Positions 17,662-43,472 of a stretch of DNA of 64,000 bases are shown here, one piece after another (the stretch's first letter is position 1; each line of letters opens with the position of its first letter). A program made the position numbers and the translations under genes. The notes below the pieces were generated by a model. That model was given only the letters and a program-made list of their open reading frames with translations, searched no databases and was not told the DNA's origin. Source of the stretch: Diatrype stigma (taxonomy: Eukaryota > Ascomycota > Sordariomycetes > Xylariales > Diatrypaceae); NCBI GenBank assembly GCA_022225965.2, contig JAKJXP020000003.1, positions 744,001 to 808,000 on the forward strand. Reading direction: 5' to 3'.

Positions 17662-17697
17662 GCCACAGTGATCACTGTTTCAGAACACATTTCGACC
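17662..17697 (+). repeat. Left terminal inverted repeat of the island
   Basis: Begins GCCACAGTGATCACTGTTTC, contains the palindrome CAGTGATCACTG, and ends CATTTCGACC. It is not RIP-mutated, unlike the DNA 60 bp inward. Confidence 0.85.
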
Positions 17698-17837
17698 TGT
17701 TTTTTTAATAGGCATACCCCAGCGGCCTAAAGCAAAATTAGCCTGTTAATTGCATTATATATATTAAGCCTTCTTAATAATACCACTTATCCGCATATAA
17801 TCATCCAGCTTTATTGCATTGCTTACGTAATTAACTC

Positions 17838-17845
17838 TTTTTAAG
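17838..17845. repeat. 8-bp target-site duplication, left copy
   Basis: TTTTTAAG, repeated exactly at 19181-19188 on the other side of the 1335-bp TIR element. Confidence 0.85.
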
Positions 17846-19180
17846 GAGCCAGCCTATTGAGGCCTTAAGGTAATTGAGGCTATGCTCCACTTCTGGATTT
17901 CCACTCGGCTGCCACCTGCCACCCACCTACCTACCTACCTACCTACCTACCTACCTACCTACCTACCTACCTACCTACCTACCTATTTATTTACCTAACT
18001 ACTTACTTTCTTACTTTCTTACTTACTTATTTATTTACTTATTTATTTACTTTTTTTAAATTAAACTTTAACCTTTAATTTAAACTAATTTAAATATTAA
18101 TATATTATTTTTAAATGGAATTTATATAATGTTTTTAAAAAGAAATAATTATAATATAATAAAAATAACGCGTTTTTATTAAAATAATTAAGTATTATTT
18201 AATATATAATAATTAATTAATATTTTTATATTATTTAATTTAAATTTTTAATAAAAACTAATTAAAGTTAATAAAAGTAATATTAATTAAATCTTATTAA
18301 AACCGAATTTATAAAATAAAATAATATATATTAATTAAAAAATAAACCTTATAATTAAGTAATAATAAATAAATAAATAAGTAATAATAATAATTAAGCT
18401 ATTTACGTAAGTTAAAGGATTTATAATAACTAAGTAATTTAAAATAATTAAATATAAATATAATTATAAATATAATTATAAATATAATTATAAATGCAAT
18501 TATAAGTATAATTATAAGTATAATTATAAATTAATAACTTATATAAGTTAAAAATGCATTTAATTATAAGGCTAAGTTTCGTAATTATTTAATACGCTTT
18601 TAAAGTATTATATAATATTATTTAAAGCGTATTATTTTATATAAAGTTTTATTATATTTAAATAATGCTTTTTAAATAATGCTTTTAAGTAATATTATTT
18701 AATATTATTTATATAACTTTTAAAGATTTTATAAGTTTTAAAACTTTTAATTATTATATTTATAAAAATATATATTAAAGGTTTTATTATTATTAAATCT
18801 TTATATTAAAAGGTTTAAATTTTATTATATAAATATATTAATAATATACTTATTTAAATATAAATAATTTTTAATAATTTATATAAATATATAAAATTAT
18901 TTATAAAGTAATTAATTCTTTATTACTTTATTATATATTTATATTTAAAATTATTAATAAATTTCAAGAAAATCATTAAGTAAATAAATAGGTAGGTAAG
19001 TAGGTAGGTAAGTAAGTAGGTAGGTAAGTAGGCAGGTAGGTAGGTAAGTAGGCAGGTAGGTAGGTAAGTAGGTGGGTGGGTGGATGGGTGGGTGTGTAGG
19101 TGGGTGGCAGCTGGTAGCCGAGTGGAAATCCAGCAGTGGAGCATAGCCTCAACTGTTTTAAGGCCTCAATAGGCTGGCTC
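17846..19180. mobile_element. Non-autonomous TIR element with 8-bp target duplication
   Basis: The ends begin GAGCCAGCCTATTGAGGCC and form inverted repeats of roughly 85 bp with a handful of mismatches. They run straight into (ACCT)n on the left and the complementary (AGGT)n on the right, which lengthens the fold-back. The core (about 18055-18965) is almost pure A/T and codes for nothing. An 8-bp target duplication fits hAT, P or KDZ-type transposases, but the tip is not the CAGTG typical of hAT, so the superfamily is left open. Confidence 0.85.
17924..17985. repeat. (ACCT)n microsatellite inside the left TIR
   Basis: A run of about 15 CTAC/ACCT units. The mirror (AGGT)n run lies at about 18990-19075, making the open frames that read as Thr-Tyr-Leu-Pro repeats on each strand. 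Confidence 0.9.
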
Positions 19181-19188
19181 TTTTTAAG
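19181..19188. repeat. 8-bp target-site duplication, right copy
   Basis: TTTTTAAG, identical to 17838-17845. Confidence 0.85.
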
Positions 19189-19943
19189 CCGCTATATTAT
19201 AGCCATAGCAGCGCAATTATAGCTTTATAAAGCTGTAGCGCTGTATTATTTATAACTGTTAGAACGTTATAGCAGTTGTAGCGCTGTAATAGTTGCAGCG
19301 TTATAGCAGTTGCAGCGCTGGAGCGCTGGAGCCCTGAAGCGCTGGAGCGCTGGAGCGCTAAAGCCCTAGAGCAATAGCGTTACGGAATAAAATGCCCAAG
19401 TATTAACGTAGGTCATAAACTTGCTTATACCGTAATAAAACGAAGGGTTATTGTGTCGCTTTTTTTTTTATAAGAATTAAATAAAGTCGCCTGTTTTAAA
19501 TAAGAAAGTAACTTAATATGCGCATAACGGCCCGTACTCTTTTAAAATAACGGGTTATGCCCTTTTAAAGCAATTGGCTATTAATTTGCTTTATGCTTAA
19601 AATAACTAATTATTAGTTCATATTTATTATTTCTTATAGTTTTCTTTGTTATTACTAATTATTAGCTTTAATTTTATATATTAATGCCGCGATTTTTTAT
19701 TATTGCCGTTATTACTTTTAATTATTATTATTATTTATAAACTTTAAACTTTTATTATTATAACTATACCTTTTATTGTCTTCGTTATAACTTTCGTTAT
19801 TTTAGTTATATTTTTATTATTATAGCCTTTTTTTTATTATTATCTTTTTATTACCGCCTTTTTATTGCTAATACTTATTATTATTTTTGCCATTTTTATT
19901 TATTATTATTATTATTATTTTTAATTTTTATTGCTTTTATTAT
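19189..19943. other. AT-rich island DNA with a GC-rich minisatellite
   Basis: This segment belongs to the host island between two nested insertions. It carries a degenerate array of GCGCTGGA/GCGCTGTA-like units at about 19240-19375 that stands out as unmutated; beyond it the DNA is AT-rich and featureless. Confidence 0.55.
19240..19375. repeat. Degenerate minisatellite, AGCGCTGG-type unit
   Basis: Many partial copies of AGCGCTGGAGCGCTGG and TAGCGCTGTA separated by a few bases. The unit is itself palindromic (AGCGCT), so folding is likely. Confidence 0.75.
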
Positions 19944-19948
19944 ATGCT

Positions 19949-20099
19949 TATTACGGTATTAAATGTATAATTACCGGCCCGGCTTTATATCGTTATATAT
20001 AAAGAAACGTTTCGTTTCTTTTAATTTAAACCTTTTCTTTTTTTTTCGTATAATAATAACTATATCTTTTTAATTCTATATTTGCTTATAGCCGTAATA
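19949..20099 (+). repeat. 5' LTR of the gypsy element
   Basis: Starts TATTACGG and ends CCGTAATA; shares the GGCCCGGCTTTATATCG and TATATAAAG segments with the 3' LTR. The usual TG..CA tips read TA..TA here, as RIP would produce. Only about 150 bp long, short for the group. Confidence 0.9.
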
Positions 20100-21384
20100 A
20101 TTTATTGCATTTATCTTTTTTTATAAGTTTAATTTAATTATAAGCCTTAAAATCCGAACGATAAGCTATAAGCGCCAAAGGATCGTAATGACTTTATATC
20201 TAAATTAACCCTTTTCCATTACCGCTACGGCTATTCTTTAAGAATTCGAATATTTAATTCTTACGGTTTAATACTTTTAAGAGAACTTTTAACCGATTTT
20301 AAACTTAATTATTATTAATTTAACGATTAATCCCTTTTAATATGCCATTTTAAACGAAATAAAATAACGCCTTAAAACGTTTACTTAAAAAAACGAGGAA
20401 TTTTATCGTTAGTTTAACGCAATAATAAAGAAAAACGATTTCGAAACGATTCCGCAAATCCAATAGCAATAATCCCCATTTTTATATATTTCTTAATTAA
20501 ACCGTTTTATTAATTAAATATCCTTTTCGACTTTGGACCTCTTTTCGAACGTTATTTAATTAGGATCCTTTTTTTATTAGTCTTATTTTTAATTTATTCC
20601 GATAATTAATTAAACGTAAACTATTTGCTATATAAAATGCCTTAACGTTAAAGCGATAACGAAACCTAAGGATAATAACTTATTAAAGTTTAAAGAATTA
20701 AGCAATAACGACTTCGAAATATAAAAGAAATACGTTAATTAAAGGTTTTAAGTTTACCTAAAATTAGCCTTCGATCGTTACGTATATATAACGAAAATAA
20801 ACCGAATTATGTATATAACTTAGTATTTAAATAATAAAGCATATACCTATATTAAAAAACGGATCGATATAATTACCAAGTACTTTAACGATTTTTAGCA
20901 ATAACCGAAAAAATAACGAAATTATATTAACCTAATTACGTTTTTAAATATTTTATATATCGTTAAAAATATCCGAATAGCAGTTTATAAAAGCTTTATA
21001 GCTTTCCAATAAAGCAACAAATCCTTCGGAAAGTTTATAAGCCTATTCGTTAAATATGCGAATTAAAGCCAGCAATTTAACGCTATTCGCGTCGTAATAT
21101 TATAAACCAAAATTAACGGAGCTTTATAAAACGCATTCGTTTCGGTAATGGATTAGCTAATAAGCGACGATATCGTAAAATGGATTAACTTATACCGAAA
21201 CCTATTTAATAATTTAAAAAATAAGGCCCTTATTAAAAAATAACAATAACCCTTTTAATTAACGCATATATCCGCATTTTTATTAGCCTTTATATTAAAA
21301 CCTATATAATTCGACGCAATTAAAACGATATAATTCCGTAAGCTTTTTCCGCAAAAAAAAACCCGGCGTTTTAACGGTTATTTA

Positions 21385-21426
21385 TGCTTATATTATAAAA
21401 AGGCGGGTTATTTTTATAAAGATTGC
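21385..21426 (+). pseudogene. gag zinc knuckle remnant
   Basis: The 14 codons read CLYYKKAGYFYKDC, which keeps the C-x2-C-x4-H-x4-C spacing of a nucleocapsid knuckle. The second Cys and the His have both become Tyr, each by a single G-to-A or C-to-T transition. Confidence 0.8.
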
Positions 21427-22614
21427 TCCGAAAGAAACCGAAAAAAAAAATGGCGGATCGCCGGAAAAAGCTTAGCCTCCAATAAAAGTCGCAACTAAAG
21501 GCCCTTTTTAAAATATTTCGAAACTATAAAGAATAAATTATATATACGTTTAATAAGTTTTAATATATTATTTTCTTTTTTTATTAAAATATTTCGTTTT
21601 AATAGTAAACCAATTTCATTTTATGTTATAATCGATAATAAATGCTTATTATATGGTTTTGTTAATAATAATTTTGCGTATAATATTTATTTGCTTAGCC
21701 TTAACTTATTCGCTTTTAAAATATTTCGCTTTATAAACGGTATCGTAACGGAAATAATTTTTAAATATAACATCGTAAACTATTAATTAAAATCCATTAA
21801 AAAATAAATCCTTTTATATTAATAACGCCTAAACGGTTTTAACGTTATATTGGGTTTTTTTTTGGTTTTAACGTTATAATCCTAATATTAATTAAAACTA
21901 TAAAATATTCGCTATTAATAATAAAATATTTTTAAATTTAAACTTTTTTAGCTTTTTTCCGATTTTAATTTAATATTAAAACCTGGTTTAAAACCGAAAT
22001 TAAATTAAAAATTACGTTCAAAATTAAAACAAAACTAAAAGCCATATTCGAAACCGGACCTAAATTATAAATTAGGCCGTAAATTAATTCCGAATTTTAA
22101 TATTCGAAACTTTTAGATCCGAAAAAATACCCGTAATTTCCAAACCGGTTTCGAATTATGTTTAGGCCGATACCAGTTCCGTCGATATTCGGTTTTTTTA
22201 TGTTACGAACTTTTTTATATTTTGCCGTATAAACGGCGTATTAATGAATAATATATTATTTTAATAATTTATCGCCATAACGGATATATTTCGCTTTTTA
22301 ATCGTAATTAATCCAAAACCTTAAGCGTTAATCGAGAATATTATAAACCAAATATTTAATACCCTTTTTCGAAATATTTTAATATAAAATAATACCTTAA
22401 ATCCGAATGCAATACCGAAACGATTACGAAACTTTTACGATTAAATAACGGAAGCACCGTAATTACGACGAATTTTAAACGAAAACATTTAGAAATATTT
22501 AAATGGAAAACTTCCGGTTACGATAAAAGAAATCCTAAAAAAACTTTTTCCAAAATATTACGACTTAATTAAGGCCTTTTTTTTATACGAAACCGAAACG
22601 TTATTTTTTTATTA

Positions 22615-23140
22615 TTTATATAATTATAAAATAAAATTATTCCTTAATTAAACCTTTCCGTATAACCGATTTCGTTCGATATTTCTTAAAGAATTATTAA
22701 TAATTAAAAAATATATTAACGATTATTTCGAAAAGGAATTTATTCGGGCCAATATTTTTTTTATAATGATACCGGTTTTGCTTACGAAAAGATCCGAAAG
22801 CGAAATTCGTATTTGCATGGATTATAAAAAATTTAATAACGTTACCGTTAAAAACAAATATTTTATTCCGTTAATTCGAAAAACTTTAAATAACTTTTGC
22901 TAAGTAAAGATTTATATTAAACTCGACATTATTGCGGCATTTAATCGATTTCGAATCGCTTCCGGAAACGAATAAAAAATAACGTTTATTATAAGATTCG
23001 GCCTTTTCGAATGCCAGGTAATTAATTTCGGCATAACCGGTATTTCGAATTCGTTTTAATATTATATTAACGACATTTTATTCGACTTATTAAACCGATA
23101 TATTATAATATATTTAAACGATATCTTAATATATAGCAAA
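22615..23140 (+). pseudogene. Reverse transcriptase remnant (Ty3/gypsy pol)
   Basis: Recognisable stretches are FEKEFIRAN, RICMDYKKFNNVT and IKLDIIAAFNRFRIA, then the catalytic box YLNDILIYS at about 23111. The second residue of the YxDD box has become Asn (GAC to AAC). Premature stops interrupt the frame. Confidence 0.85.
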
Positions 23141-24199
23141 TTTAAAAAAAATACCGATAATACGTTCGAAAATTTTTTATTCGCTTAATAAATACTGGCT
23201 TTACGGTAAATATCCGAAAGTATAAATTTAACGTAACGAAAACGAAATATTTAAGATTTATCATATTAATAAACGGCATTTAAATAAACTTAAAAAAAAT
23301 CGAATTAATTAAAAATTAAAAGTCGTTTAAAACGTTACGCGAATTATAACGATTCTCGGATTTTGCGAATTTTTATTGTCGCTTTATTAAAGACTTTTTA
23401 ATCCTAGCCTATTTTTTAACGGCTTTAATAAATAAAAAAAAATGGCCAAAATACCTTTTAAACGTTATAATAACGGCGTTTTAACGATTAAAAGACGTTT
23501 TTTGCGACGTACCTATATTTATATATTATAACCTTAAACGCCGTATTATCTTAAAAATAAACGCTTTTAATTAAGTATTAAAAAGGATCCTTTTATAATA
23601 CGATTTACGAAAGGATTTACGCTTTATCGCTTTTTTTTCGGCAAAATATAACCTAATAAAATGCAATTACGAAATTTACGATAAAAAGCTTTTCGTTATA
23701 ATTAAAGCGTTTAAAAAATAACGTTCTGAATTATAAAGCATCGAAAAATCGATCGAAATAATTACGAATCATAAGAATTTATAGCATTTTATTATTATAA
23801 AACTATTAAATTAATGCTAAATCCGGTAATTAAAATTTTTTAATAACTTTAAATTTCAAATTACTTATAAATCCGGCAATAAAGCAACCGTTTTAAATGC
23901 ATTCTTCCGATTTTCCGGCGATAAGCCAGCGAATTATTACGACCTTAAAAACGAAAAAATAACTTATCGATACCGCATCTTATTATTTTTAAACCGTTAA
24001 ATATTTTTATAATTTTTTGCCTTAAACGTTAATAAATTAATCGATACTTTAATTAACGAAGCTTATAACGCGTTGCTTTTAATATAAGACTTTTTTTAAA
24101 TTATAACGAATTTTTAATGCAAAAAGTTTAATTAAAAAATTAAGAAATAAATAAGAATTATTAAAACCGATTACGTAACGATTTAAAAACGAATTTATA

Positions 24200-24720
24200 T
24201 TAAAAATAAGTTATTTATATTTCCGGACGAAACTTTTTACTTATAAATTCTTTACCGAATCCATAATTTTGCATTAAAAGGTTATTTAAAATAAACGAAA
24301 ACATACGACTTTTTTCGCCGTATTTATTTTTAGCCGAAACTTTCCCGAAATGTAATCGTTTTCGTTTAAGCCTGTTATTTTTATAAACGAATTAAGAACT
24401 TTCGTAATTCAGTTATTGGATTTTTTAATTCCTTATCGGTTCCGTTTCGTTTTTAATTCGATATTTTTATTAATTACGTAAAACCATTTCCTTTTTATAT
24501 CCGTAACGGTATTATATACGAATACGTCTTAATCGTAATCGATAAATTAACGAAAATGCGTTATTATATATCCGTTTTCGATACGAAAGCTAAAACTTTC
24601 GGAAACGCTTTCGTAATGCAAATTTATAAATTTTACGAAATCCTTAATACGATTATATTTAATAAAAATATATAATTCGTTTTTACGTTTTAAAATAAAC
24701 TTAATCGCCGATTAAACATT
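24200..24720 (+). pseudogene. Integrase remnant (zinc-binding and core)
   Basis: Stretches such as VIVIDKLTKMRYYI and FYEILNTIIFNKNI match the catalytic-core order of gypsy integrases (DRLTK and GxPxxIxSDRG regions). The frame differs from the RT remnant, so an indel lies between them. Confidence 0.75.
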
Positions 24721-25422
24721 AATTTATGCCATTTATTAATATATTACCTTAAATTTAATAAGCAAACGGAAATTATTAATAACGTTATAAAATAATATTT
24801 CCGCTTTTATTGCTTCTTTTATTAAAACAATTAAATCGATTAGTTTTTATTAACGGAATTCGCCGGAAATAATGCCGTTTCGGAAATAATTAATGTATTA
24901 TTTTTTTTCGTTAATTACGGCTTTTATTTAGAAATAAATATCAAACCGAGCCGCCTTATTATTGCCCTTAAAATATTAATCCGCCAATAAAAATTCCATA
25001 ACGTTACGACCGTAACTAATAGAATCGAAAAAGTCCTAGCAATAACCAGGTTCTTTATAATAAAATTCCAAAAACGTTAAGCTAAAAATGCAAACCGGTA
25101 CCGAATTAATGCCGGCATATTCGAAATAAAAGATTAAATTTGGGTTAATATTAAGAATATTAAGATAAAACGATTTATAAAAAAGTTAAGTAATAAATAA
25201 ATGGGTTCTTTTTTTATTACGAAAACGTATAAACGGGCCGTAACCGTTTAAATATTTAATTATTTTCGAATTTCTTTTATTTTTTATATTTTATTAATTT
25301 AACGGTACTAATAAGGCTTTTCCAATTAGGAAATTATTAACGAAAAATTAAACCGACGGGCCAAAAACGTTATAATACCGCAAAATAAAAAAATAAAAAA
25401 TAAGAAATAATACTTTAATAAA

Positions 25423-25575
25423 ATCCTTAATTTTCGACATATACGAATAAAATTATAATATCGAATAAAATAGCCGGCTTCGTATCGGCCCATTTAAGAA
25501 TCGGCCCGGAATTTCTAGAAATGCGATGATAATATAATAAACTTTTATAAAAAGAATCCTATTAAGCCGGATCCT
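25423..25575 (+). pseudogene. Chromodomain-type integrase tail remnant
   Basis: Reading from the ATC at 25423, ILNFRHIRIKL is followed by YRIK, then PASYRP and a tail NFYKKNPIKPDP. This aligns in order with fungal chromovirus tails of the type ILD.R..G..L.Y.V.W.GY and FH..YP.KPGPP. Confidence 0.65.
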
Positions 25576-25599
25576 TTAAATTAATAAATATGGCCCGAA

Positions 25600-27323
25600 A
25601 AAACCGCAGCTTTAAATTATAATTAATAAAAATTACAAAATAAACAAATAAAAGAAAAAAGGTTTTTATTTATATTGGCCCAAAAGGCTTAATAAATCGT
25701 AAGGCGATTTATATTAATAAAAGAAAAACAAAAATAATAAAAGAAATCGTAACTAAAAGGCCGAAACCAAATTACGAAAGCCGAAATAAAACCGAAGCAA
25801 TAATTAATTAGCCATAAATTAATGCCAAAATATTAGCAAAACGTAATCTAATATATTATCGCAAATAGGAGCCGGCAAAAAAAAACCGAACCATCGCCTA
25901 ATAAGCGGCAAAATCGAACGGAAACGTCGCCATATCGTTATCCGCTTAATTACGGCCGAACTTCGCAATTAAGATTTGCTTTATCTTTTAATAAAAAACG
26001 CATTTAGCGATCGTTTAAATTTATTAACCGGCGTCGCCGGAAATTAAACGCGGCTCGATGGCGACCTTTTAAGCCGTTTAAGTATCGTCGTTTTATTATT
26101 TTTTCGTTAGCCAATTAAAAACGAAACGGATACGAAACGGAATATTTACGTTATAAATACGAAAGGCGGGGTTTTATATTTATATTAAAATATAACGCGC
26201 GGCGATTTAAGCTATATATATATTCGGAACCTAAGCGTTTTACGGTTAATTTAATATTAATACGGCATTAAACGACTAAAAAGCAAGACATATCCGCTTT
26301 TTTTTAATACCGGTTTTATCGATAACAATACGATAAGCCTTTTTGGCCGTTTCGAAAGCGACGCAAACGCAAAATACGATCGTAACGACAACAATCCGGA
26401 CATTTTCCGAATAAATTCGAACGAATTTATTTTTAAAATTTAAAAGCGGATTATTATTATTATCGTTATCGTTTTAAATAATACCGAAAAAATAATCGAT
26501 TTAACGTAAAAAAGCAAATAAATCCGTTTAATCGTTTTATATTTTAAACGACGCTTAAATATAAAATTATTAATAAATAAACCTTATGTTATTTACAAAA
26601 TGCTATTAAAACGCCGATTAAACTTATAAATTCGTAAAAATCCTTATAACCGGCGCATAAAAAGTATATTACATTCGTCGCGTTCGTCCATTTATACGTA
26701 AACGCCGGCATTTCGCCGTTAATCGAATTGAAATGCTTTATGATATACCGAAAGCATTTTATATATAGCGACTTCGTTAAAAAAAACGAAGCGAAGGCGG
26801 TATAAAAACGGAAAAGCATAACGACGACGCGATAATAATATCGATAAATAAGTAAATAAACGAAAAGCAAATAAAGCAACAAAACGGACGCAAATATTAA
26901 TCGGTCGAAAAAAAAAGAAATAACGAAACAATTACGATTCGGCAAGCCTTAAAAAAAAACAAAATTATAAAATAAAAAAGAAAAAAATGCTAACGTATTT
27001 ATATTTTAAATACGGGGCCTTATAATTAGTAATTAAATATATAAATATATGGCCATTATAATAATACGTTATTCGGAGCAAGTATTTATTTCCGAATCCG
27101 GCTTGGCGCTTCGAATTAGCAAAAGGTACGAAACCAAATAATCTATTAAAACATACGCTATTCGGGGCAGGTGTTTTTTTTTCGAATCCGGTTTGGCGCT
27201 ATTAAATATATTTCGAATTAATACAAAATTATAATTAAAATATTACCTTTCCGTTGCCTAGTAATTCAGAAAATTAATTTTAAGAGGTAATTAAGAATAA
27301 TTATTTAAAAAAAGGGGATTTAT
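25600..27323. other. Post-pol segment of the gypsy element, content unknown
   Basis: About 1.7 kb between the chromodomain remnant and the 3' LTR. An antisense frame of 118 codons (26589-26945) stays open through RIP DNA and reads as a hydrophobic protein ending GYKDFYEFISLIGVLIAFC; I do not recognise it. Near the 3' end a 42-bp unit containing CGAATCCGG..TTGGCGCT is repeated (27070-27111 and 27157-27201). Confidence 0.5.
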
Positions 27324-27470
27324 TGTTACGGTATTAAATATATAATTACCGGCCCGGCTTTATATCGCTATATATAAAGGGACGTTTCGTTTCTTTTAGC
27401 TTAAACCTTTTTTTTTTCGTATAACAATAATTATATCTCCTTAATCCTATATTTGCTTATAGCCGTAATA
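27324..27470 (+). repeat. 3' LTR of the gypsy element
   Basis: Begins TGTTACGG (intact TG tip) and ends CCGTAATA. It is similar to the 5' LTR with mostly transition differences, followed by the ATGCT duplication. Confidence 0.9.
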
Positions 27471-27679
27471 ATGCTATTATTATTATAACTTTTCGTTATT
27501 TTTAATTCTTTTATTTTTTATTTCTTTTAATTGCCCTTTTATTACGATCGAATATTTATAACCGAATTTTTACGATTATATATTTACGATTAAACATTCG
27601 CAATTTAGCATTATTTTAATTTTTTATTATATAAGTATTTTTTGCTGGCCTTTGTAATATTTCAAAGCTTCTTATATTT

Positions 27680-29300
27680 AAACGCAATATCGTTACATAA
27701 GTAAATATTAATTCGAAACAAACGTTAATCTTTTATTTATAACATTTAATTACGATTATTTAAATAAGCTAACGTATAAACTTTATACCTAAATACGATT
27801 CTTAAAGTTAATTAATTACTTTTCATTATTACTATTATTATTAAGCCTTATTAATTTTTATTTCATTATTTGGTATTATAACGCATTTTTAATATTACTA
27901 ATTAAATTTATTTAACCGCTTATATTATAATACCGTTATTTACGAATACGTTTTTTAAAATCCTTTTATTATATTCCATCATATTAATAATACTTAATAT
28001 AATAACGATTTATATAACTTTATTACATTTTGTTATTAAGTAAACATTTTAATAACATCATATATCGACCAATTTCCGTTATTACCAAAATTATAAATTG
28101 CATAATTATTTTTATGTATTTCATTTAATATTAACCAATATTATTATCGTAATAATTATTTATAAAATATTATTAAGCCATTAAAATATTGGGATTATTA
28201 TCGTTAAACGATTAAATAATTAGCTTAATAAATATTTTATATTCGATATTATAAATAATTTGGTAACATTTAAATATAGCTATATAAAATCATATTGCCC
28301 ATATTTGGAAAATGCAAAGAAATGGTAATATTAATATTGCTAAATAAAATATTTTATTATATCTTTAATTATATTTTAATTAATTATATTTTAATTAATA
28401 TAATAACCATAAATTAATATTAATATAATATTTATAAGTAATTTATTTTTATTAATTAAAATGCAAAAGCATTTTAATATTTTAATAAACCTTTTTACGT
28501 CATTTACGAATATACGTATATATGTTTATAATTTTAAATAATTAATTATTAACTTAATATTTATAAAATTATAACAATAATACGATAAAATATTCTTTTC
28601 CGATTATTAATTTTGCTTCATTTTTAATTATGCCGCCGGATATTTTAAAACTATAACTCGATATTCCAAAATTATAATCCAATAAATCCTTATTATAATA
28701 TGCTTTTTTATATTTTAAAACTTTTTAATATTATTTTAATTACGAAAATAAACGCAAAATATATCGTTAATAAATACGAAACGTATTATATATTACGACT
28801 ACTTTTTTATGAAATAACGATTTTTATACCGATAATAACAAGTTAAATACATATTTAATTTAACGAAATAAAATAATTAATCGCAAATACGACGAATTTT
28901 ATAATTATTGCAAAATTATAACATAAATTATTAGCATATAATTATTTCATTTTTATCGATCGGTTTATGGATTTCATAAAAATGCATATATTAATTACGT
29001 TTTTTATGGTAAAGACTAAAAGTATTTTTATTACGGCGGCCTTATTCGCCTTTTTTCTTTAATCCGGCTACATTTATTAAGTCGCATTATAAAATTTATA
29101 AATCGTAACTTTAAATAACAATTATCAAAAAATCTTATGCGGTTTTTAAATAACGTTAAAAAGGAATTAAATAAATTAAATATGTAATAACATTATTTCC
29201 ATAAAAAAGCAAAAAATAATAATGGCATTTATGGTTTTAAAATAAATTCGTAATAAAAATATAAATTTATAATATACATTTTTTATTTTATGCATAATAA
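27680..29300. repeat. Long direct repeat, copy A (heavily mutated)
   Basis: Colinear with 41390-43000 at a constant offset of about 13.7 kb. Shared tracts include ATAAATTGCATAATTATTTT, TTTAATATTAACCAAT and AAAAGCATTTTAATATT. It has lost nearly all C/G outside CpG. The original content is not identified. Confidence 0.75.
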
Positions 29301-32300
29301 TATGCCTTTATATAATTCTTTATTAATATTAAAATAATTATTATATATTTAATATATTTAAATAATATATGCTTTTAATTTATACATAATTTTATAATAC
29401 ATATATTTATATAATAAAATAAAATGTTCTAATAATTACATTTTCCTTATAATAATATATTCGACATATGCATAAATTTATAAAAAAAGATTTTATACAT
29501 AATAAATTAAGGTATTCTTTTCTTATTATTTTTACCTTATTACTTTATTTTAAAATATCGTCATTTATATATCATAATTAAGTTTTATATTTATTTTAAA
29601 TCTAAAATCCCTAACGATAAACTTTTTTCTTTTATTTTACACTTAAAAGCTAAAATTTAACATTTTTTTTAATTATATTATTACGCGCAATTTATTTATT
29701 ATTTATGTTTAAAAAGTTTTATATAATATAATTAACATTTAAATAAATGCATCGCCATTTTCATTAATTTATGTATTCTTTTAATTTCGTATACCTATAT
29801 TATTAATTCTTTTGCCGTTATAACCAATTTCTTAAACTTTATTATTTTTTATTAATTATATTTACGCATAAAAAGTTATATACTTAAAATATACAAACAT
29901 TAATCGTTATTAATTTAATCGATTTAAGGAATTATATTTAAGCCATTTGCTTTATCTGCTTATTCGTAACGAATTAAAAAATAATCTACGTACTTTAATA
30001 TAGCGATAATCTTTTAGCTTACGTCGAAAAAATAATATTAAGGCTATTTTAATTTAAGTATTAAACATAAAACAAATAACTAACCTTCGATATATATAAT
30101 ATATTATAAAAAAAAAACCCTGGAATTGCTATATACGTATAAATCATATTATTCCAGGATTTAATTCTTTATAAGGAATTTGTATTAATTGCTATTATAA
30201 TGGCAATGGTTTAAAATATTCGTTTTATTAAGCATTTCGTAAGTATTTATTTTTTTCATATTTATTTAAACGATTAATATAAATAAAGCCATAATAAACC
30301 TTATCTCGAAATATTCGTTTTATTTTAAAATGCAACCAAAAGGCATAATAAAAATAAGCCTTAAGTTTAACATTATACGTTCATTTCGAAAAAATATTAA
30401 AATTTACGGCTTTAATTTTATAGTACCGATAAAAACATAACGATTATCTATTAATATACCACTAAAAAAAATGCTTTTCTTTATAAAAAAAGCACTTGAA
30501 ATGTTAAAAAAAACCCAAACCCCATATATATTATTTCAATTTATTTTTATATTTATTATATTAATTCCATATTAATGAAATTACTTAGCGCCGTTATTTT
30601 TTTATATCTTTTTTAACCAGTTTGCCTTTAAAAGTCGGAATAATCTTTTTATCGTTTAATAAATTAACTTAAAACGTAAAAAAAAAAATACTCGTAAGAC
30701 TTACCAGTTTATTCCTTATTATCTGGACGCTTAATAAACGAATTTTGCTCGGTATTATCCGAATCCGTAGTTTTAGCCGAGCCTTATTCTCGTAAGCCCA
30801 GTAATATATTATTATCGTCGTCCGAAATTTGCAGCTGCTTATTAGGCGATATTATCTTAATAACTAAAAAAGCCTAACTAAATAAAACATTTTATATGCT
30901 AGAAATACTAATAAGCTTAAAAAAAATAGGCGCAAAAAATGCCATTTATAATCCGCTAAAATTCGAATAAGCCTGTTTATTAATGGAAAATACGGCTATA
31001 CGTAATTTGCGCTAAATTTTAGCAACATAATTATAAAATAACGGAAAAATAACGTTTTAACGGTTATACGTAATAGCCGGCCTAAATAAATTAATAAGGA
31101 TTAAAAAAATATTAGCGAATATAAAATAAATTGGGACATATATTAAAGCATTTAAAGGTTTAAGCCCCGCAAATTCGATAAATTCGTTTTTAAGCTAACC
31201 GAAAATTATGCCTAATTTATATAATCCCTAGCTATTCTTTAATTTAAGGTTTTTATTACTGTTTACGTAAAAGAAATATCTCTTACGTTAAAGATTAATA
31301 ACGAAAACAAAAATAAAAAATATATAATTCCTTTTATTTATAAAAACGCCCAAAGCCTTTTCCGATTTATTAAAAAAAAAACCTTAACTTAATAAATACC
31401 CTTTTATTTAATAAGGGCTTAATGGAATCCTTTAAACGGAGCTTACGGCAATTGGAATATAACCGTATTATGCCGAAGAAATTATAAGAAATAAGTGCTT
31501 TAACGAAAGGAACGTCCGAAAATATAGGAAGTAAAATAAAAAGCCTAATTAAAAAGCGTTAATATTATGTTTATAATAATGCTAATATATAAATTATACT
31601 TACCGGATTATTTTTTTTAAATGGCATTATATAATAATACAATAGCCATTTTTTTTAAAAAAATCGCGCATATAAATAGCCCAAAAAAAATAAAAGCCTT
31701 AAACTTGTAAAACTAAATTACGCAAATATTCATTTTAACTTATTCCCATTTCGAATTACATAACGTTAACCACTATTTCTGACTTATAAAAATAATCCAC
31801 TAATACCGGCCAATCGAACAAATCATTAAAAAAAGGAATTCCTATAATTAAGATTACAGCCAAACTGCCAAAATTAAGGAATTAAACGTTTCGAATAAAG
31901 AACTCGATGCCTTAAATAGCAGCCAATATAATAACGTTTAATCCGGAATCGGCTCTTAAAAAACGTGCCCGAAAAGGAATAAAAGAAATGGCCATAATAA
32001 AAGAATTGCCAAAAAAAAGCCAATAACGTAATGTAATAAATAATATAATAAATATAAAAAAACCTAGCAAAATTAATTAAATAATCCTTATAATGCAATT
32101 AGTAATACAGAATTAATATAACCAATAACGCAAAAAATTCGAATAATAGCAATGGTTTTAAAAATAATGCAGAATAAATTAATGCAATACAAAAAAATAA
32201 AATGTCGTATCGAAATAATAGCAAAAATAAAGGAAAATATAAACAATAATAACGATAATAATAAAATATTCGTTATAATAATTTAAATTATAATTAAAAG

Positions 32301-32784: not shown

Positions 32785-33381
32785 TTAATACGTAAAAAAG
32801 GTAGAGACCAACCAATTAAGGTTAATCCAGGTTATCTAGCTATATATACCCTGTATGTATATATGTATATAGCGTACATCACTTGATTGGACCATGCTAG
32901 GCCCCCCTAGGCACCCGTATCAAAGTGCCGGGGACGAAATAACCTTTATCGACCTCGATAGTCTTATTGCCAGATTGGGCTTAGGGCCGGAGCGCGCATT
33001 CCCAGGTGTATATGGTGGAATGGGCTCGACGGGCTTATCGCCAATTGGGCTTATCGCTAGAGTCAGCTCGCCTTTCTTAGAATTTTTGGTATTTCGTACG
33101 GGAATCGAATCCGCCACTTTGCTGTGGCATATGCAGCACTTCTTTCCAATAAGAGAACGAGATGCGTGGATCCTAATGGCTGGGGCCCTTTCCTTATAAT
33201 GGCACTATACCGCTGCGCCACCAGACCGGAAATGCTACCATTTGATACGTGAAAAAGGTAAGGACCAACCAGTTAAGGTTAATCCAGGTTATTTAGCTAT
33301 ATATACCCTGTATGTATATATGTATATAGCGTATACCATTTGGTTAAACCATGCTAGGCCTCCCTAGGCACCCGTATTAAA
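32785..33381. repeat. Unmutated module: paired 140-bp repeats around a tRNA-like block
   Basis: Two near-identical direct copies (32785-32924 and 33241-33381) share GGTTAATCCAGGTTAT, CCCTGTATGTATATATG and CCATGCTAGGCC. Each is itself bounded by inverted tips of the type TTTGATACG..CGTATCAAA. Between them lie 316 bp of ordinary base composition. The whole module has escaped the mutation seen on both sides. It could be a miniature LTR-type (TRIM) element, or a short TIR element inserted twice around a SINE. Confidence 0.7.
33088..33230 (-). other. tRNA-like / SINE-like block with pol III boxes
   Basis: On the minus strand an A-box-like TGGCGCAGCGGTA (33209-33221) precedes a B-box-like GGATTCGATTCCC (33100-33112) by about 100 bp. 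I could not fold a good cloverleaf and the acceptor arms pair poorly, so this is not called a functional tRNA. A tRNA-derived SINE head or an intron-bearing tRNA relic are both possible. Confidence 0.4.
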
Positions 33382-36300
33382 TATATTATAATGTAATATA
33401 AATACAAACAAAAAAACGAATGCATATAATAAATAAATTAAACCCTTTTAATTTAATTTGTTATTATTTTATAAACTATTTATTTAGTTTCGTTTTTTAT
33501 TTAAAAAAAAACTTTTTTTATATTTATCATATTTCTTTATAATTTATTATAATTTATTATATCTTTTATTAATTTTAATGTTATAAAACAAAATCGATTA
33601 ATAAGGTTATTATCGAAATTTCTTATTCGATAAGATTTATTAAGCGATTTTTATTTTTATGCCTTACTTATTCGATAATTATATAAAAATATTCCGATTT
33701 TAATACCTTTTGCAATATAATTCTAACATTTAGCCTTTAATTTTATATTTTTTATTACGCAATTCCAGCATTTAATTTTTAATCATAATATTTTTCGCTT
33801 AACTTTATCTCTTATTTAATCCCAGTTTTAAAATTCTTTTTATAATGCCCCCGGTTTTACGCAAGCTTTCTTTTAATTGGATTCGGATAATTTCGAAACT
33901 TCATTAAGGGCATTAATTCCATCGCTTTCGCCCGTATTCGAAAGTAATGCCTTAAAATCCGTTAAAGCTTTATTAACGGCAATTAATTCCGAATTTTATA
34001 TTAATAAGTCGGCCTTTAAAATTCGTTCGTTTTTAAACCCTGTTTTTAAACGGCATAAGGCCAAGTTAATTCAGAACTTTTAAAAACAAATTCAAATAAA
34101 GTTTATATTTTTTTTAAAATAATGCCGCTTATATTTAATATAATGCTTTAAATTTAATCTTTATTATATATCCTTTTATAAAAAATCTTTATAACGCTTA
34201 TTTAATAAATTACAAACCCTTTATTTCTTTATTTTTAATAAGTACTTATATCGCCTTAATTATAAAAAATATTTTCCATTTAATAAAAACGTTAAAACAT
34301 AAATTTATTAAGATTATTATCGTTAAATTAATAAGAAACGTTTTCTTTAAAAAGTATATTTAATTATATTATATATTCCTTATAAGCATTATTGGCCAAA
34401 AGAAATTAAAGTTTTTCGTTTTCTTAAAAAGCGTTTCCTTACTTTTGGGATTACTTTTAAATACATAACTAAGTTATTTCTTAATTTAAAAACTAATTAT
34501 TCTTTTAGTTTTATATATTGCAAAGTTATTAATTATTTAACGGTATTTGTTAATAACATTTACGAAATTGCTAAAGTTTTACCGCGGCCCTTAAAAAACG
34601 TATTAAGCGAAATTCATATTATTTAGTATAACTTTAATCGTTTAAAAAAATAAAACCTATTATTATTTCTAGGATTACGTAAATCGGTTATAATAAAAGC
34701 ATTAATTTAATTGCGAATATATAATTATTTATATCGTTAAATTATAACAAATAATGCTTTTTAAAACATATGGCATAAAGCGAATGAAATATTTCCGCTT
34801 AATATAATGGAAAATATTACCTTAATGCCTAATATAAAATAAAAAAATGCCTAACGATTAATTTATATTCCAAAAAACAAATTTATGTTTCCTGTATTTA
34901 ATAAAAATGCAAATAATTTTAAAAATAATTCGAATAAAAACGAAAATATAAACCAAAGGAATAAACTTAATAAAAAATTACAAAAAAAAAACTAAACGCA
35001 GGCATTAAAAAAAACTAAAGCAATTATTGGTTCGTTTTTATATATCGATTAATAATTTGCATTATATTATAAAAAACCCCGAAAACCATGCATTAATAAA
35101 AAATAAATAATACATCTTTATTACGTCTTATACCTTTAATGTCTTTTAATTTATTTGCCAATTGCTTAAATCTTATAAAAAAAAACCAAGCATTTTATCC
35201 ATAATTATCTTTTTGGGATTTTTCTTATTAAATTAAACCCGTATTAATAATACGAAAAAGGCCCAATTCGTATAAAAATCTATTGCCCTTAAGTTTTTAT
35301 AAAGAAATAAATACCAAAATAACGTAACGGAAAAAAAAACTACCGAAGGTCGTTTATATGTACGGGTTCGTTTTGAGAACCACTTTTTAAGCGTCCGTAA
35401 TCCAGACTATTTTGCATTTACGTTTATTAAGATCCTACTATATGGAACTAAAGGTCTTATTCCTACCAATAGCGATTAAAAAAAAAGCTTAAAGCTTAAA
35501 ACAAAAACCATTTAATTTATAAAAATAAACAAAATCTTTATAATTTATTATATATATTTAATTAATATAATATAATTGGGCCTTAATAAAATTACGACAA
35601 CATAAAACCCATATTAAAACCTATTTAATCTTTTTATTTCTGGTATTTAATAGAATTATTCGAAATAATAGTTTTAAAATCAACAAAACCCGAACGTTTA
35701 AATTTGCCTTTTTACGATTACGGCGCATTTATAAAACGATTATATGCAAAGAACTGCTAAAAATTAACCAAGAATTAAAATAACATAAGCCTATTAATAA
35801 TTCTCGAATAATAAAGTTTTTACGAGAAATAATAATATTCGGCCGTTAATAATTATTATTAAATAAAATAAAAATGTAATAAAAAAATAAAATTAAGTTC
35901 ATAATTATGCAATATAGGATTCTTTTAATTTGGTTTATAATTAATCCGAACGACTTATTTTCTTTAATTCGAATTAAATTCGGCCGTTAATTCCGCGGAT
36001 CCAAATATTTTAAGCGATAATAAAAACGTATTAAAAAAAAGTTACTTATAAAAAGCCGCCGGATTTTTAAGGAAATTAACTAAAATCCTATATTTTTTAT
36101 ATAATAATTTCATACGCATATATAAAAACTTTTCGAAAAATTAATTTAAGCTAAAACTAAAAATAAAGCATTTAGGCCCGTAAACCATTATTTTAGCGTA
36201 ATCGAAATTAATAAACGAAAAACTTTTTATTTTTACGGCATTTTATAAATCGAAAAAAACATAAATGCTAAAAACCTATTAAATAATTTACATAACAGCA

Positions 36301-36510
36301 AGGATTTTAATAAAATTATACGTTTTATTTTTTTGAATTATTAAATATTTTTACGAAAACTACGACGCCTATGTATTAACTATTCGAAGAATTAATTATA
36401 TACGATTCGAATCGAATTCAAAGCTCGAATACGATTTTAATCGGCTAAAAACAAAATAAAAAAACGAAACATAAATAATTGCCATTATAATATAACGTTA
36501 TATATATAAT
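33382..36510. other. AT-rich DNA, probable N-terminal part of the Helitron relic
   Basis: Lies directly upstream of the recognised Rep/helicase remnant and is long enough to hold its N-terminal half, but stops are dense and I could not align it. A 68-codon frame at 33877-34083 is unassigned. Confidence 0.4.
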
Positions 36511-36513
36511 TAA

Positions 36514-37020
36514 ACATGTTTTAAATATGCCGCATTTAAGAATAACAAAAAGGAAAACCATAAACGACGATATCGATTTGGCTAGCCGTAAAACCGAAAA
36601 AAACGAATTTATATTAATAATAATAGCATTTTTTATATTAAGCGCTTAAATAAAAGCTGCTTTCGTTAAAACCCGATTATTGCTATTATATTAAGGCATA
36701 ATTATAATTTTTCGTTAATTTATACGAAAACCAAAATCCTTGCTTTATTATATTATATTACGGATTATGCTACCAAGTTAAAGTTTTTTATATACCAATA
36801 ATTGGCCATATTTATAACCCATTTAAATACGTTAACAAAAATCCCAAACTTTATTAATCAAAATAATCCGAATATGGTTACTATAAGCTTTATAATACGT
36901 ATTATTAATAAAATATTTTTAAACCGAGAATTATTCTTTATTAACGTTTATAATTATTTATTAAATTATAAAACTTATTATTACTTAAAAAAAATTAACG
37001 TTGGCTGCATATTATAACCA
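36514..37020 (+). pseudogene. Helitron Rep/helicase (Helitron_like_N) remnant
   Basis: One frame carries, in order, TCFKY, RRYRFG, INNNSIFYIKRLNKSC, NPIIAIILRHNYNF, ILALLYYITDYATK and NKIFLNRELFFINVYNYLLN. This is the order of fungal Helitron helicase-like N-terminal regions (TCxKY..CRFGFPR..NPxIxxxxRxNHD..ALxYYITDYxTK..RELSxxEVxxYLLG). The frame is interrupted by TAG/TAA codons at positions where CAG or TGG would be expected. Helitrons move by rolling circle and normally lack TIRs, so this is either a nested Helitron or a captured gene. Confidence 0.75.
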
Positions 37021-39939
37021 TATATTAATTAATTCGTTAATTATGGCGTTACTTATAAAAGCTTATCGTTAAAAATGTTAACGAAAAAAAAAATCGGTTA
37101 ACCAAGATTCGGTTTTATTTAGTCCAAAATATGAAATAAAACCCATTATTTTTTAGGCGTACCAAAAACGTAGCCCTTAATTTCGTAATTTGTACTTTTA
37201 TAATTATGCTTTTATAATAAAAATTGCTAAAAAATCGGATAAAAATAAATAATCAGCATAAAGATATGCTAAATTCGAAGGATTTTTGCATACGAATTCT
37301 TATTATTAACGGGTTTTATATTAAAATTACGTAAAGGTTTTTATATTTATTGGGTCGTTTTTATTACAAATAAACGATAATAATATAACATTTACTTATA
37401 ATTTAATAATTCGGTTCGTTTTATTCGTTCCTTAATAACATTTTATTAATAATAAAACCGAAATACCTCTTAAATTATGGCAGAAATTCCGACATACCAT
37501 GCTTAAAAAATTACGGCATTATAATAATAACTTTAATTTATTATATAAATTCCGTAAAAACGCTAAAAAGGACGCTTAATTATGGAATATACGTAAAAAC
37601 TAAAACATCGGAATTAAAAACGATAATCCCGTTAAACCAACGAATAAAAACGGGCTTTAATAAAAACAAAAAAAATTCCAAATTATAAAAACCTATTAAG
37701 CTTTATTTAAAACGTAACTAACATTTTAACGGATACGAAAAATCGTAAAATAAGCATTTTTAAAAATACCATACGATATATCTTTTAATTTGCCACTTTT
37801 ATATAGCCATTTATTATAACTTAATTTCTTTATCGAATGGAATTAAACAGATATTAGGATTTACATAAAAAGCTAAAAGAAAATAACATAAAACGAAATT
37901 TATAATATATTATCGACGAATCGAATAAAGCCTAAAAATCGGAACTAAAGGCCTTAAAGCAAAATTTATTAAAGCAAGCTATAAAAAAATTAAATGAAGT
38001 TTCGGAATTACTTTAATAAGGCCTAAACTTTATTTTAAAGCAACGTTAATTATTCCCTTTAAAAGATTTAAATAATAACGATAACTTAATAAAAATAAAT
38101 AATAATCCCATACTTATTGCCTTTAATCGATTATGCCGAACCCAATAATAAAACCGCATTTAAATTAGGCCTATCGTAATAATTATTAAAAAAAAAAGGC
38201 ATAACCTAAAAAAACATAAATAAAAGGCTATAACAAAAACTTTAATTTAATTTTAAATAAGCCGTAACATTAAATATAATTCTACGCTATATAAACAAAT
38301 TCGATAAATTTAAAAAAGGCGTTAACGAAAATTACGGACCTATATAAAAAGCCGATAGCCATTTTTTATCGAATAAACCTTTATAATTATTATTTTACCT
38401 TAGCAAAAAAGGTAATACAAGAAAAAATCGAATTATTAAAGCATTAACAATAGCTTTTAAACAAAAGAATCTCTAATAAAAGCTTAAATTAATTAATACA
38501 TTAGGATCTGCTAAAGCTGGAATTAATAGCATTACATTTTATTCCGCATTAAACCTATAAATTATAAATAACGGCAACAAAAAAAAAACCTATTCCGGAA
38601 TTTATAACTAAAGCTTTATAAAAAATTAACGTTTTAATTATCGATAAATATAACATAATAAGTAATATAAACTTTTATTAAATGCATAAGCATTTATAAT
38701 AAGTTATCGACCATTTTATTAATTTTAGCGAAATGCTTATTATTATTATTTTTAAAAACTTTTATTAATTCGTACTAATTCGTTCCGATCCTATGCTTTT
38801 TTCTGGCAAACCTATAAGCGCTACCGATTACGAGGCAACGGAAAAACATTTTAATATTTAAAAGAATCTTTAATATTTTAATTACAAGCTTTAAAAAGAG
38901 TTTATTAATATAATACTTCTTAATAAATAAATAAGAACCATAAACCAGGAATTTCGTAAAATCCTTATTGCTTTTCGAAATAAACAGCAATTAATAAGAA
39001 ATATAAAGATTTTAAATGCTAAATTAATTAACGCAATTACGATTCGATTTTTATCCATAATTAAAGCGATTATTCCTATTAATATTATAAAATATTTCTT
39101 AAATTTGCAAGTAATATTGGCATTTACTAAAAGACATAATTAATAAGTATATATTTTTTTATTACATTATACGCCTAAAAAAGGATTAATTATTAAAACT
39201 ATTTATAAGGCGTTTACGATAATAAACGACTTAACTTTAAAGCTTTTAGCATATTTGGCCTTTATTTATAACATGCTTATTACGGTTATTATAAATAAAT
39301 ATCCAGGTTTTAAGGTAATTAATAATACGAAATTCATTATAAAAGGATTCGTTCCTAATTTATAAAGCGAAACTTATAAGCTATCTTTTTTAGTTTTAAT
39401 TATTACTCATCCATTTAAGGTTATTTTAATTACATTAATTAATAATACAAACGTTTATATCCTTAATTTACCCCTTAATATAATTCCAATCTTTCCGGAA
39501 AAATTATATGCCACTTAATTAAGACCATTCGATAAAAAAGCATATCCCTTAATACCTATTTTTATAATAACCGAATATAAATCTTAAAACATAACGTTAT
39601 AAAAGGCCTATTTAAATTTAACGTTAATTCGAATTAAAGTTAAAGAAATTAATTTCATTAATACTTATATTTAATTATTTCGATTAACGGAACTTAAAAG
39701 GCTTTATTTGCTTAATTTAATTAATAAAACGCATTAACTTAACTTGGTATTATTATTTCGAATAAAACCTATTATTAAACGATTAAAAAAACTAAACCGC
39801 CAAATAATTAAAAAATACCATACGAATATATAAACGATATCGCTTTTTACGTTATTTTTTAATTATGCTTAATTAATTTATTACGACCTTAATAATATTT
39901 TAATCTTAATTTATTATTATGGCTTATTAATATAACCCT
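37021..39939. other. AT-rich DNA downstream of the Helitron remnant
   Basis: The place where the Pif1-type helicase half would be expected. The DNA is too mutated to recognise Walker motifs by eye. No intact gene. Confidence 0.4.
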
Positions 39940-40240
39940 GTTATTATTTTTAGGTTTCTTTTATTATTATCCTTAGGTTGTTTTTATTATTATTTTTAAG
40001 TTGCTTTTATTATTATTCTTAGGTTACTTTTATTATTATTTTTAAGTTGCTTTTATTATTATTTTTAAATTATTTTTATTATTATCCTTAAATTGCTTTT
40101 ATTATTATTCTTAAGTTGCTTTTATTATTATTTTTAAATTGCTTTTATTATTATTCTTAAATTGCTTTTATTATTATTTCTAGGTTATTTTTGTTATTAT
40201 TTCTAAATTATTTTTATTATTACCATTATTAAATTGTTTT
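39940..40240. repeat. Tandem array, about 23-bp unit
   Basis: Roughly a dozen copies of a unit like TTGCTTTTATTATTATTCTTAAG, differing mainly by C/T and G/A changes. Confidence 0.85.
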
Positions 40241-40319
40241 TATTGCAACTTAATAAATTATTTAAATATGAAAAAAATAGGAAATCCAAAGCGGTAATAT
40301 TACTAGTATATTTTGCGTA

Positions 40320-40690: not shown

Positions 40691-41051
40691 TTTATATATA
40701 GCATTTAATATATTAATATAACAAATTAACATATAACGAAAACGTCGTTTCTTTAATTTATCCGTAACGTATATTTCCTTAAGGATGTTTTTTTATTTAT
40801 TAGTATTAATATGCAAAGTTAATGCCATCGTAAATTTCAGGCTATTAAATGCATTTTAACCGTATATTTTAGGTTATGCCTTAAAAATAAACGTTATAAC
40901 AAAAAGGTTCGATATTAAAATTCCTTTTTCGTATTTAAGGTAATTAATAATACGTATAACTTATTTATATTAATACATACCTGCTTTTTTAATAGCTAAA
41001 AAATATACATATATATAAAGCTTCGTTTTTATTTTTTAATTTTTTCTTATT

Positions 41052-41082
<31 letters not shown>

Positions 41083-41389
41083 TACTATTTAAATCGCATT
41101 AAAGTACGTATCTAGGCATATATTATAATTCCTTTTAATAAATACGTACCTAAATACGTATTATAATTCCTTTTAATACCTATACGTAATTTATTTTATA
41201 AATTTCCTTTTATTATAATACCTATTTATTTACTTTTTTTGTAATTTTTAATCTTTAAGCTAGGCGTTCGTTTAATTAATTATAACTTCGGACGTTATTT
41301 ACGGGGAATTATAATTATTTTTTTCTTATTTTTTTATTATTTTTTTCGTTAACGCCATTTTTATTAACATTTTAAAAGCCCTTAAACGC

Positions 41390-43000
41390 AATAGCAATGT
41401 CGTTACGTAAGCAAACGCCGGCTCGAAACCAATGCTAATCGTCCGTTTAAAGCAATAAATCACGATCGTTTATATAAGGCTAAGGCGGAATTAATATAGC
41501 TAATAACGATTCGCAAAATAAATTAATCACTTCTTATTATTTTCATTATTATAAATAATTATTAATTAATGCTTAAATACTTAATGCTACGACGCGTTTT
41601 TAATAACCGCGATATAATTAATTTAACCGGCCATATTACGTTATCGTTTTCCGAAAATACGTTTTTTATAATTACTTTAATATATTTTATTATATTAATA
41701 ATAATTAATATAATAACAATTTATATAAATTCATTAACTTTTGTTATAAAACAAATATCGAAGCAATATTATGCATTTACCAATATACGTCGCAATAAAA
41801 GTTATAAATTGCATAATTATTTTTATATGTTTTATTTAATATTAACCAATTTTATTATTATAAACGTTATAAATAAAAACGTATAAAATTAATAAAATAT
41901 TAAAAACGCAATTGCGAAATTATCGAATAATTAAAGCAATAAATATATATTTATAAATAATTTTAATACTTTAATATCGATATTAATAAAGCTATAATAA
42001 AATATAAACCCCAAGTTAAAATAATGCGTTAACGTAATAATGTTAACGGTATTAAATAAAATAATCGAGTTAATAAATTAATGCATAATATTTAATTATA
42101 TTTAAACCAATATAATAATTATGAATTAATATTAAAATAATATTTATTAGCAATTCGTCGTTCGAAATTAAAATCCAAAAGCATTTTAATATTCCGATAA
42201 AACCTTATTAATAAGCCGTAAACGTAAATATATATAATAATAATTAATAATAAATAAAAACTAATTAAATATATATAAAATAATAACGATATGCAAATTA
42301 TTGCGATTTATAAAATTATAAACCGCTATCGAACCCCGGATATTATACGTAATTACGAAAAACTTATTGCTAATATTAACGATTTAATGGAATTTATTAA
42401 AGTTAATCGTTATAAAATAAACCAATCCGGACTTATTGTAATCGTAAACCGTTAATTTAAAAATATAATATGAATTATAAATAATTACATAAAAAGCCTT
42501 AACAGCTATATTAAGGCCTTATAATAAATGCATAATAACGACAAATTCGATAAATATATCATTTAACGTAATTTAAAAATTAAGGCGATAAATAAAAAAC
42601 CATGCAACCGTTATAAAATTAACGAATAATCCGATAATATGTTGCCATTTAAGTTTTATTAATTAAATAAGTTTTTTTATAATAATGCATACGCTAATTG
42701 CATATTTTATAATAAAAGCGATAAATATATTCGTAAAAGCCGCAAAAGCGACGTTTTAAATTTAATTCCGTTTAAGTAATTATAAACCAACATTAAAAAG
42801 TTTAAAAAGGATTTCGATAATAATAAAAAAAGCAAACCAAATATTAACTTAATATATTAAAAGCTTAAAAAATAAAAAGCATATTAAGCAATTAAGCAAA
42901 ATATAAAATAACGTTACGAATAATAATATTAAAAAAATATAATTATGCTTTAATAAAACGTTATAAAAATTATAATAGGTTTATATATTAAATAAGGCTA
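41390..43000. repeat. Long direct repeat, copy B (less mutated)
   Basis: Same orientation and order as copy A at 27680-29300. This copy keeps far more C and G (for example GCAAACGCCGGCTCGAAACC), so it was hit less by RIP or arrived later. A 105-codon frame (41569-41886) and a Lys/Asn-rich stretch with KPCNRYK and NCIFYNKSDK lie in it; no family recognised. Confidence 0.75.
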
Positions 43001-43436
43001 TTTAATATATGCAATTAAATAAATTTCGTAATTAAAATTATTATAATGCTTAATAATAAGTACGAAAATAAAAAGAATTATGCAAAAAATTAAAAATAAA
43101 TGCATATATAATGCAAGTATATAATAAAGTTTATATATATATAAACGTATAATTAAGACTGGCATTTAATACTTAGGCTTTTATGTTTCTTCGAATTAAA
43201 AGGGCCTTACGTTATGTATTATGCCGCTAATGTACTTAATTAAAGTACTTACCGTATCTTTTAAATGCTATTTGGAAATAAAGAAAATATATATACAGCT
43301 AGATATAATTGTAATTTATATTAACGTTATATTTACGGTTTAATGGATTCCAAGTAGCTAGCGTTATGAATAAATGCCTAGCGGCACGGTTAATTGCATA
43401 ATATCTGGCTAAAGCCGCGAAGGGGTGAACCTATAG

Positions 43437-43472
43437 GGTCGAAATGTGTTCTGAAACAGTCATCACTGTGGC
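43437..43472 (-). repeat. Right terminal inverted repeat of the island
   Basis: Reverse complement of 17662-17697 with a single C/G mismatch. The AT-rich composition stops here. Confidence 0.85.

Follow-up and report, generated by a model that had tools for sequence, protein, structure and literature searches.

Is a large AT-rich island closed by matching inverted repeats a single transposon, or several elements that only look like one? The question is raised by positions 17662-43472 of a 64,000-nucleotide stretch of Diatrype stigma DNA (contig JAKJXP020000003.1, positions 744,001 to 808,000), referred to here as the window. The original prediction, made from the window alone, was that removal of two later insertions leaves an undescribed transposon of about 17 kb with terminal inverted repeats (TIRs) and a Helitron-like helicase gene. 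With a probability of about 93% we read the island instead as a nest: a miniature inverted-repeat transposable element (MITE) was hit by a 1.3-kb element and by a 15.75-kb Helitron, the Helitron was hit by two retroelements, and the whole was altered by repeat-induced point mutation (RIP). This reading is carried by the observed nesting, the other copies of the elements, the junctions and a divergence made of transitions alone.

The element that owns the island's tips

The terminal arms of the island, at 17662-17697 and 43437-43472, lie in opposite orientation and are complementary at 35 of 36 bases (97%). The GC content is 0.21 in the large insert, with two nested insertions removed, against 0.52 in the window outside the island. 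The predicted 36-bp inverted repeats closing a 25.8-kb AT-rich island of RIP type are thus real. The element tips extend 8 bp beyond each arm, to 17654 (TATGGGTAGCCACAGTG) and 43480 (CACTGTGGCCGACCGTA), and directly outside both lies a perfect 6-bp target duplication, CTACTT (17648-17653 and 43481-43486). Because the tips reach further out and are flanked in this way, the pairing of the arms is beyond chance.

A search of the window's own genome, which the original prediction had proposed as its check, identified the owner of these tips. With the left 99 bp as query, 17 matches were obtained at 10 loci, ten of them full-length left ends; the right 93 bp gave 19 matches. Eight of the ten loci are small and uninterrupted, the two interrupted ones being C50 and the window. 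Complete MITEs, with 653-757 bp between GCCACAG and CTGTGGC tips, were found at seven loci; copy C34 is complete in outline and has a strongly RIP-mutated right tip. The left ends read TATGG in all ten cases and the right ends CCGTA in nine (C34 is mutated); the ends are TATGGGTAGCCACAG-like. An exact 6-bp target duplication is present at 7 of the 10 loci (the window, both C31 copies, C35, C102, C36 and C18), and at C34 the duplication is RIP-compatible by inspection. Tip-like sites with one or two mismatches were found seven times and were taken as chance, since a reversed control pattern also gave seven. As the tips mark a 0.65-0.76-kb element at eight of ten loci, they are not those of a giant TIR transposon; tips that elsewhere in the genome belong to a small element were the outcome that the original prediction had itself named as its refutation.

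In the window this MITE is present as three pieces on the + strand (17654-17845, 19181-19392 and 43213-43480), which when joined give 665 bp with 85.8-90.4% identity to the seven small copies. Fungal IS3EU transposons are described, in the part of PMC12730594 that deals with them, as having 6-bp duplications, inverted repeats of more than 30 bp and ends TAYGG..CCRTA; Styx of Zymoseptoria, which is linked to IS3EU, is likewise given 6-bp duplications in the corresponding part of PMC10853768. The MITE resembles them in duplication length, in its ends and in having inverted repeats of more than 30 bp, and differs from them in its size and in having no transposase. On these features it fits a non-autonomous IS3EU-like DNA transposon. 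No IS3EU transposase or autonomous partner was found in the one copy scanned, the interrupted C50. Its content was rejected as an autonomous parent, being a retrotransposon that has RNase H domains and terminal repeats of 210 bp.

The large insertion, its copies and its genes

The large transposon with a Helitron-like helicase does exist, but it is not bounded by the 36-bp tips. Its own ends lie inside the MITE at 19393 and 43212 (+ strand, GCCCAAGTATTAACG...CCTTACGT) and are of Helitron kind; without its own insertions it measures 15.75 kb. The insertion point reads AATAAAAT, Helitron, TATGTATT, where the T at 19393 is assignable to MITE or Helitron. The seven small MITE copies provide the empty site, carrying uninterrupted variants of AATAAAATYATGTATT at this point.

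Among the 40 of 54 candidates that were scored in the left-end search, the left 407 bp of the Helitron gave full-length or nearly full-length matches at seven places including the window, and matches of about 120-155 bp at many further places. The right 916 bp gave nearly full-length matches at eight places including the window. Both ends in the same orientation are present in seven copies: the window, C64, C4, C56, C122, C165 and C63. C97 has only the last 1.35 kb, 0.7 kb inward of a contig start with a telomere array (L034 1-2174). Copies C4 and C64 can be aligned unbroken from one tip to the other (15,751 columns, 86.1%), and C56, C122, C165 and the window align to C64 tip to tip with breaks. 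The 5′ start is TGCC[CT]AAGT[AG]TTAACG in six of the seven copies (C165 starts TTCCC) and the 3′ end is CCT[TC]ACGT in all seven; the ends can be described as TGCCYAAGTATTAA. At the 5′ end stands GCCYAAGTRTTAA, with its inverse 34 bp inside the 3′ end, forming an asymmetric terminal inverted repeat that is RIP-varied in some copies. The flanks of the seven copies are mutually unrelated, with no target duplication beyond one T.

Shorter relatives were sought at 20 loci with short left-end matches. At ten of these a matching right end lies within reach, giving elements 1.8-3.8 kb long whose first 140 bp or so, and whose last 54-63 bp, are shared with the 15.75-kb Helitron. These ten two-ended short copies, like the seven long ones, have unrelated flanks and no duplication beyond the single T. 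A longer target motif was considered: the long copies show a..t or t..a beside the tip Ts, and the short copies also g..a, g..g and t..t. Because of this variation we claim no motif beyond the T at each tip. At L051 (131-2342) and L039 (106-2419) a short Helitron has entered another copy in the T tract near its position 71; two left-end matches on C145 suggest a third such self-insertion. Doubled 5′ ends produced by self-insertion are described for the FoHelis of Fusarium oxysporum in the relevant part of PMC5148889. The two short-relative loci tested contain internal arrays of 18-bp units. Seven of the 20 loci run off a contig end (L043, L044, L045, L048, L049, L052 and L053). Telomeric targeting was rejected as the reason, none of the seven ends bearing a telomere array, and assembly breaks in internal repeats are the likelier cause.

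Comparison of the Helitron copies revealed the imprint of RIP. Over 15,750 columns, the differences between C64 and C4 amount to 2,191 transitions, 2 transversions and one gap. Since this divergence is made of transitions, the copies were near-identical before RIP. The other 20 copy pairs show 15-54 transversions in 12.5-15.7 kb, and those that include the window copy show 24-54, placing it among the more diverged. In the C64/C4 pair, C-to-T changes stand 459 times before T and 441 times before A, 227 times before C and 84 times before G, a broader context than the strict CpA pattern. The low GC content of the repeats follows from their mutation by RIP.

The coding content was analyzed in copy C4 by six-frame Pfam scans over its whole length, with stops read as X and E values up to 0.1. 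One frame of the + strand contains Helitron_like_N (33.3 bits, cut-off 28.9) and PIF1 (32.5 bits, cut-off 25.9). DUF6570 on the same strand is over its cut-off, and a DUF3716 match is marginally below (21.9 of 22 bits). The 1,400-residue Rep-helicase stretch of C4 has ten protein relatives. The best named ones are a protein of Monosporascus sp. CRB-8-3 (46% identity over 31% of the query) and one of F. oxysporum f. sp. matthiolae (26% over 92%, read across RIP stops). By tblastn and alignment this stretch corresponds to window positions 33958-39793 (+ strand), a Rep-helicase pseudogene whose frame is broken and interrupted by RIP stops. When the window itself was scanned against Pfam in a single frame, nothing was detected. 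Just 3′ of the pseudogene, inside the Helitron, is an array of 23-bp units (39872-40290, 13 overlapping copies listed).

Genome-wide, 39 Helitron_like_N places were found, all with stop codons. Five belong to the 15.75-kb family, the window and C56 copies being absent from the list. Most of the 39 lie outside this family, so several other RIP-damaged Helitron families are present in this genome.

The Rep-helicase is flanked by the two copies of a diverged 1.4-kb direct repeat, at 27623-29037 and 41333-42740 (both + strand), which share 68.6% identity over 860 columns and 71.4% over a further 126. Three DUF3716-like segments are carried by the Helitron. One lies in the 5′ repeat (approximately 28850-29023), the second at 30048-30222 (+ strand), as placed by alignment to copy C63, and the third, a weak one (13.7 bits, cut-off 22), was seen in C4 at the place matching the 3′ repeat. 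In C63 two DUF3716 segments exceed the cut-off. The segments show CxxC motifs, and on this ground we would guess that they act in nucleic-acid binding. A captured host gene was considered as their possible source; when five other genomic DUF3716 places were compared by tblastx with the 5′ part of C63, the sole match spanned 18 residues. An unbroken 153-residue stretch of C63 has no relative in the protein collection, and the genome-wide lists contain no DUF3716 place near a Helitron_like_N place outside this Helitron. A literature search found no paper on DUF3716 together with Helitrons or with fungi. We may be dealing with an undescribed giant lineage of fungal Helitron2 elements whose Rep-helicase is flanked on either side by genes for DUF3716 zinc-finger-like proteins that serve as standing accessories of transposition and not as chance captures; this is a tentative proposal that we consider rather doubtful at present.

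Order of events and other explanations

Each of the smaller insertions in the nest has its own target duplication. Between the first and second MITE pieces is a 1,335-bp inverted-repeat element (17846-19180, GAGCCAGCC...GGCTGGCTC) with the 8-bp duplication TTTTTAAG at 17838-17845, the last 8 bases of the left MITE piece, and at 19181-19188. Paired-arm relatives of this element are present on C23 and C37. Its core is AT-rich, with 9% GC in 18001-19000. Within the Helitron lies a 7.5-kb long terminal repeat (LTR) retrotransposon (19949-27470, + strand, 5-bp duplication ATGCT) whose RNase H domains are of Ty3/gypsy type; it also shows an integrase zinc-binding match below threshold. The second insertion into the Helitron (32786-33379, duplication GATAT/AATAT) is 594 bp long and, with direct repeats of 140 bp at its ends, resembles a terminal-repeat retrotransposon in miniature (TRIM). 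It has six further long matches elsewhere in the genome, besides two of terminal-repeat size and one weak one. No tRNA gene was called in the island. The predicted remainder of about 17 kb after removal of two insertions is arithmetically close, but it is not one unit: it consists of the MITE pieces (665 bp), the 1,335-bp element and the 15.75-kb Helitron.

The following order of events very probably accounts for this structure. The 0.7-kb non-autonomous IS3EU-like transposon inserted first, generating the CTACTT duplication; the 1.3-kb inverted-repeat element and the 15.75-kb Helitron2-type element then entered the MITE, and the Ty3/gypsy-type retrotransposon and the TRIM-like element the Helitron. 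RIP mutated the repeats and lowered their GC content. The domains, the asymmetric ends, the lack of a target duplication and the kinship with FoHelis suggest that the Helitron moved by rolling circle by means of its Rep-helicase. It is probably inactive in this genome now.

Several observations weigh against a nest of this composition. The comparisons of the locus were all made within the window's own genome. MITE copy C85 lacks the 6-bp duplication, and at C50 five of its six bases match. Copy C63 aligns over just 12.6 of the 15.75 kb. A predicted 5′ stem and end hairpins are no better than those of shuffled sequences (z of -1.10 and 0.31). Finally, the Rep domain of the window copy is missing from the genome-wide list of 39 places, and its assignment comes from alignment and tblastn.

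Three other explanations were weighed. The MITE, already loaded with the Helitron, could once have moved as one 16-17-kb unit by means of an IS3EU transposase, in agreement with the still perfect duplication around the loaded MITE. Nine other MITE-tip loci are without the Helitron, however, and a single later Helitron insertion accounts for everything, which makes such a movement very improbable. We regard it as similarly improbable that the 15.75-kb element belongs to a different kind of giant transposon (Starship-, Polinton- or tyrosine-recombinase-like) with a captured Helitron gene. Its unusual size would agree with this, as would the DUF3716-like segments and the 1.4-kb internal direct repeat, which are not standard Helitron parts. 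On the other hand, the six-frame scans of C4 detected no recombinase, DDE transposase, integrase or DNA polymerase, at a sensitivity reduced by RIP, and the ends, the asymmetric inverted repeat, the lack of a duplication and the retention of the ends in short relatives fit Helitron2 as described in part of PMC5148889. The least likely of all is a single giant TIR transposon, about 17 kb long, that has the tips CACAGTG..CACTGTG and carries a helicase gene. The paired tips and the perfect duplication do enclose the whole island, but none of the nine other tip loci encloses the Helitron. The Helitron, moreover, has ends of its own and is present at six further loci, between mutually unrelated flanks. 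The nest explains why that interpretation was tempting: intact MITE tips and a perfect duplication around nested elements mimic a giant TIR transposon exactly.

Comparison with known Helitrons

The analysis describes, from one tip to the other, a Helitron2-type element of 15.75 kb that has seven copies and short relatives in Diatrype stigma (Xylariales). The species agrees with a short-chain dehydrogenase encoded at 53997-54779 of the window, which matches D. stigma SLS62_000827 at 100%, the next named genus being Monosporascus at 74%. A literature search on Helitrons in Xylariales showed, judged by titles and the beginnings of abstracts, no paper on such elements, and one on transposable elements of D. 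stigma gave, by title, a grapevine trunk disease survey. Fungal Helitrons are typically 6-7 kb and up to 14 kb long according to one review passage (PMC6431247), an upper size that the element slightly exceeds.

The closest comparison is with FoHeli3-FoHeli5, Helitron2-type elements of F. oxysporum. The part of PMC5148889 that describes them gives a TGCCT start, a CTCCTGT end, asymmetric inverted repeats of 13-16 bp, no 3′ hairpin and a size of about 9-11 kb. Our element resembles them in its TGCC[T/C] start, in its 13-bp asymmetric inverted repeat, whose 3′ copy lies 34 bp inside the end, in a Rep-helicase without endonuclease, in the lack of a target duplication and in self-insertion that doubles 5′ ends. 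It differs in being 15.75 kb long, in its 3′ end (CCTTACGT/CCTCACGT), and in carrying DUF3716-like segments and the diverged repeat flanking the gene; its Rep-helicase is just 26% identical to that of F. oxysporum over 92%. Since start, inverted repeat and gene agree while 3′ end and size differ, we assign it, on these sequence characters, to the FoHeli-like Helitron2 kind, of which it would be a new and large member. As its 3′ end is CCT[TC]ACGT in all seven copies, it appears FoHeli3-5-like in its working and stands outside those subgroups.

The 5′-TC...CTRR-3′ ends of canonical Helitron1 elements do not occur here, the ends being TGCC...CCTYACGT. No endonuclease domain, a Helentron trait, was found in the scans of C4, in which RIP lowers sensitivity. 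The relation between long and short elements is like that of Helentrons with DINE/HINE: the large element's ends are retained in its short relatives, and both of those inspected contain internal tandem repeats.

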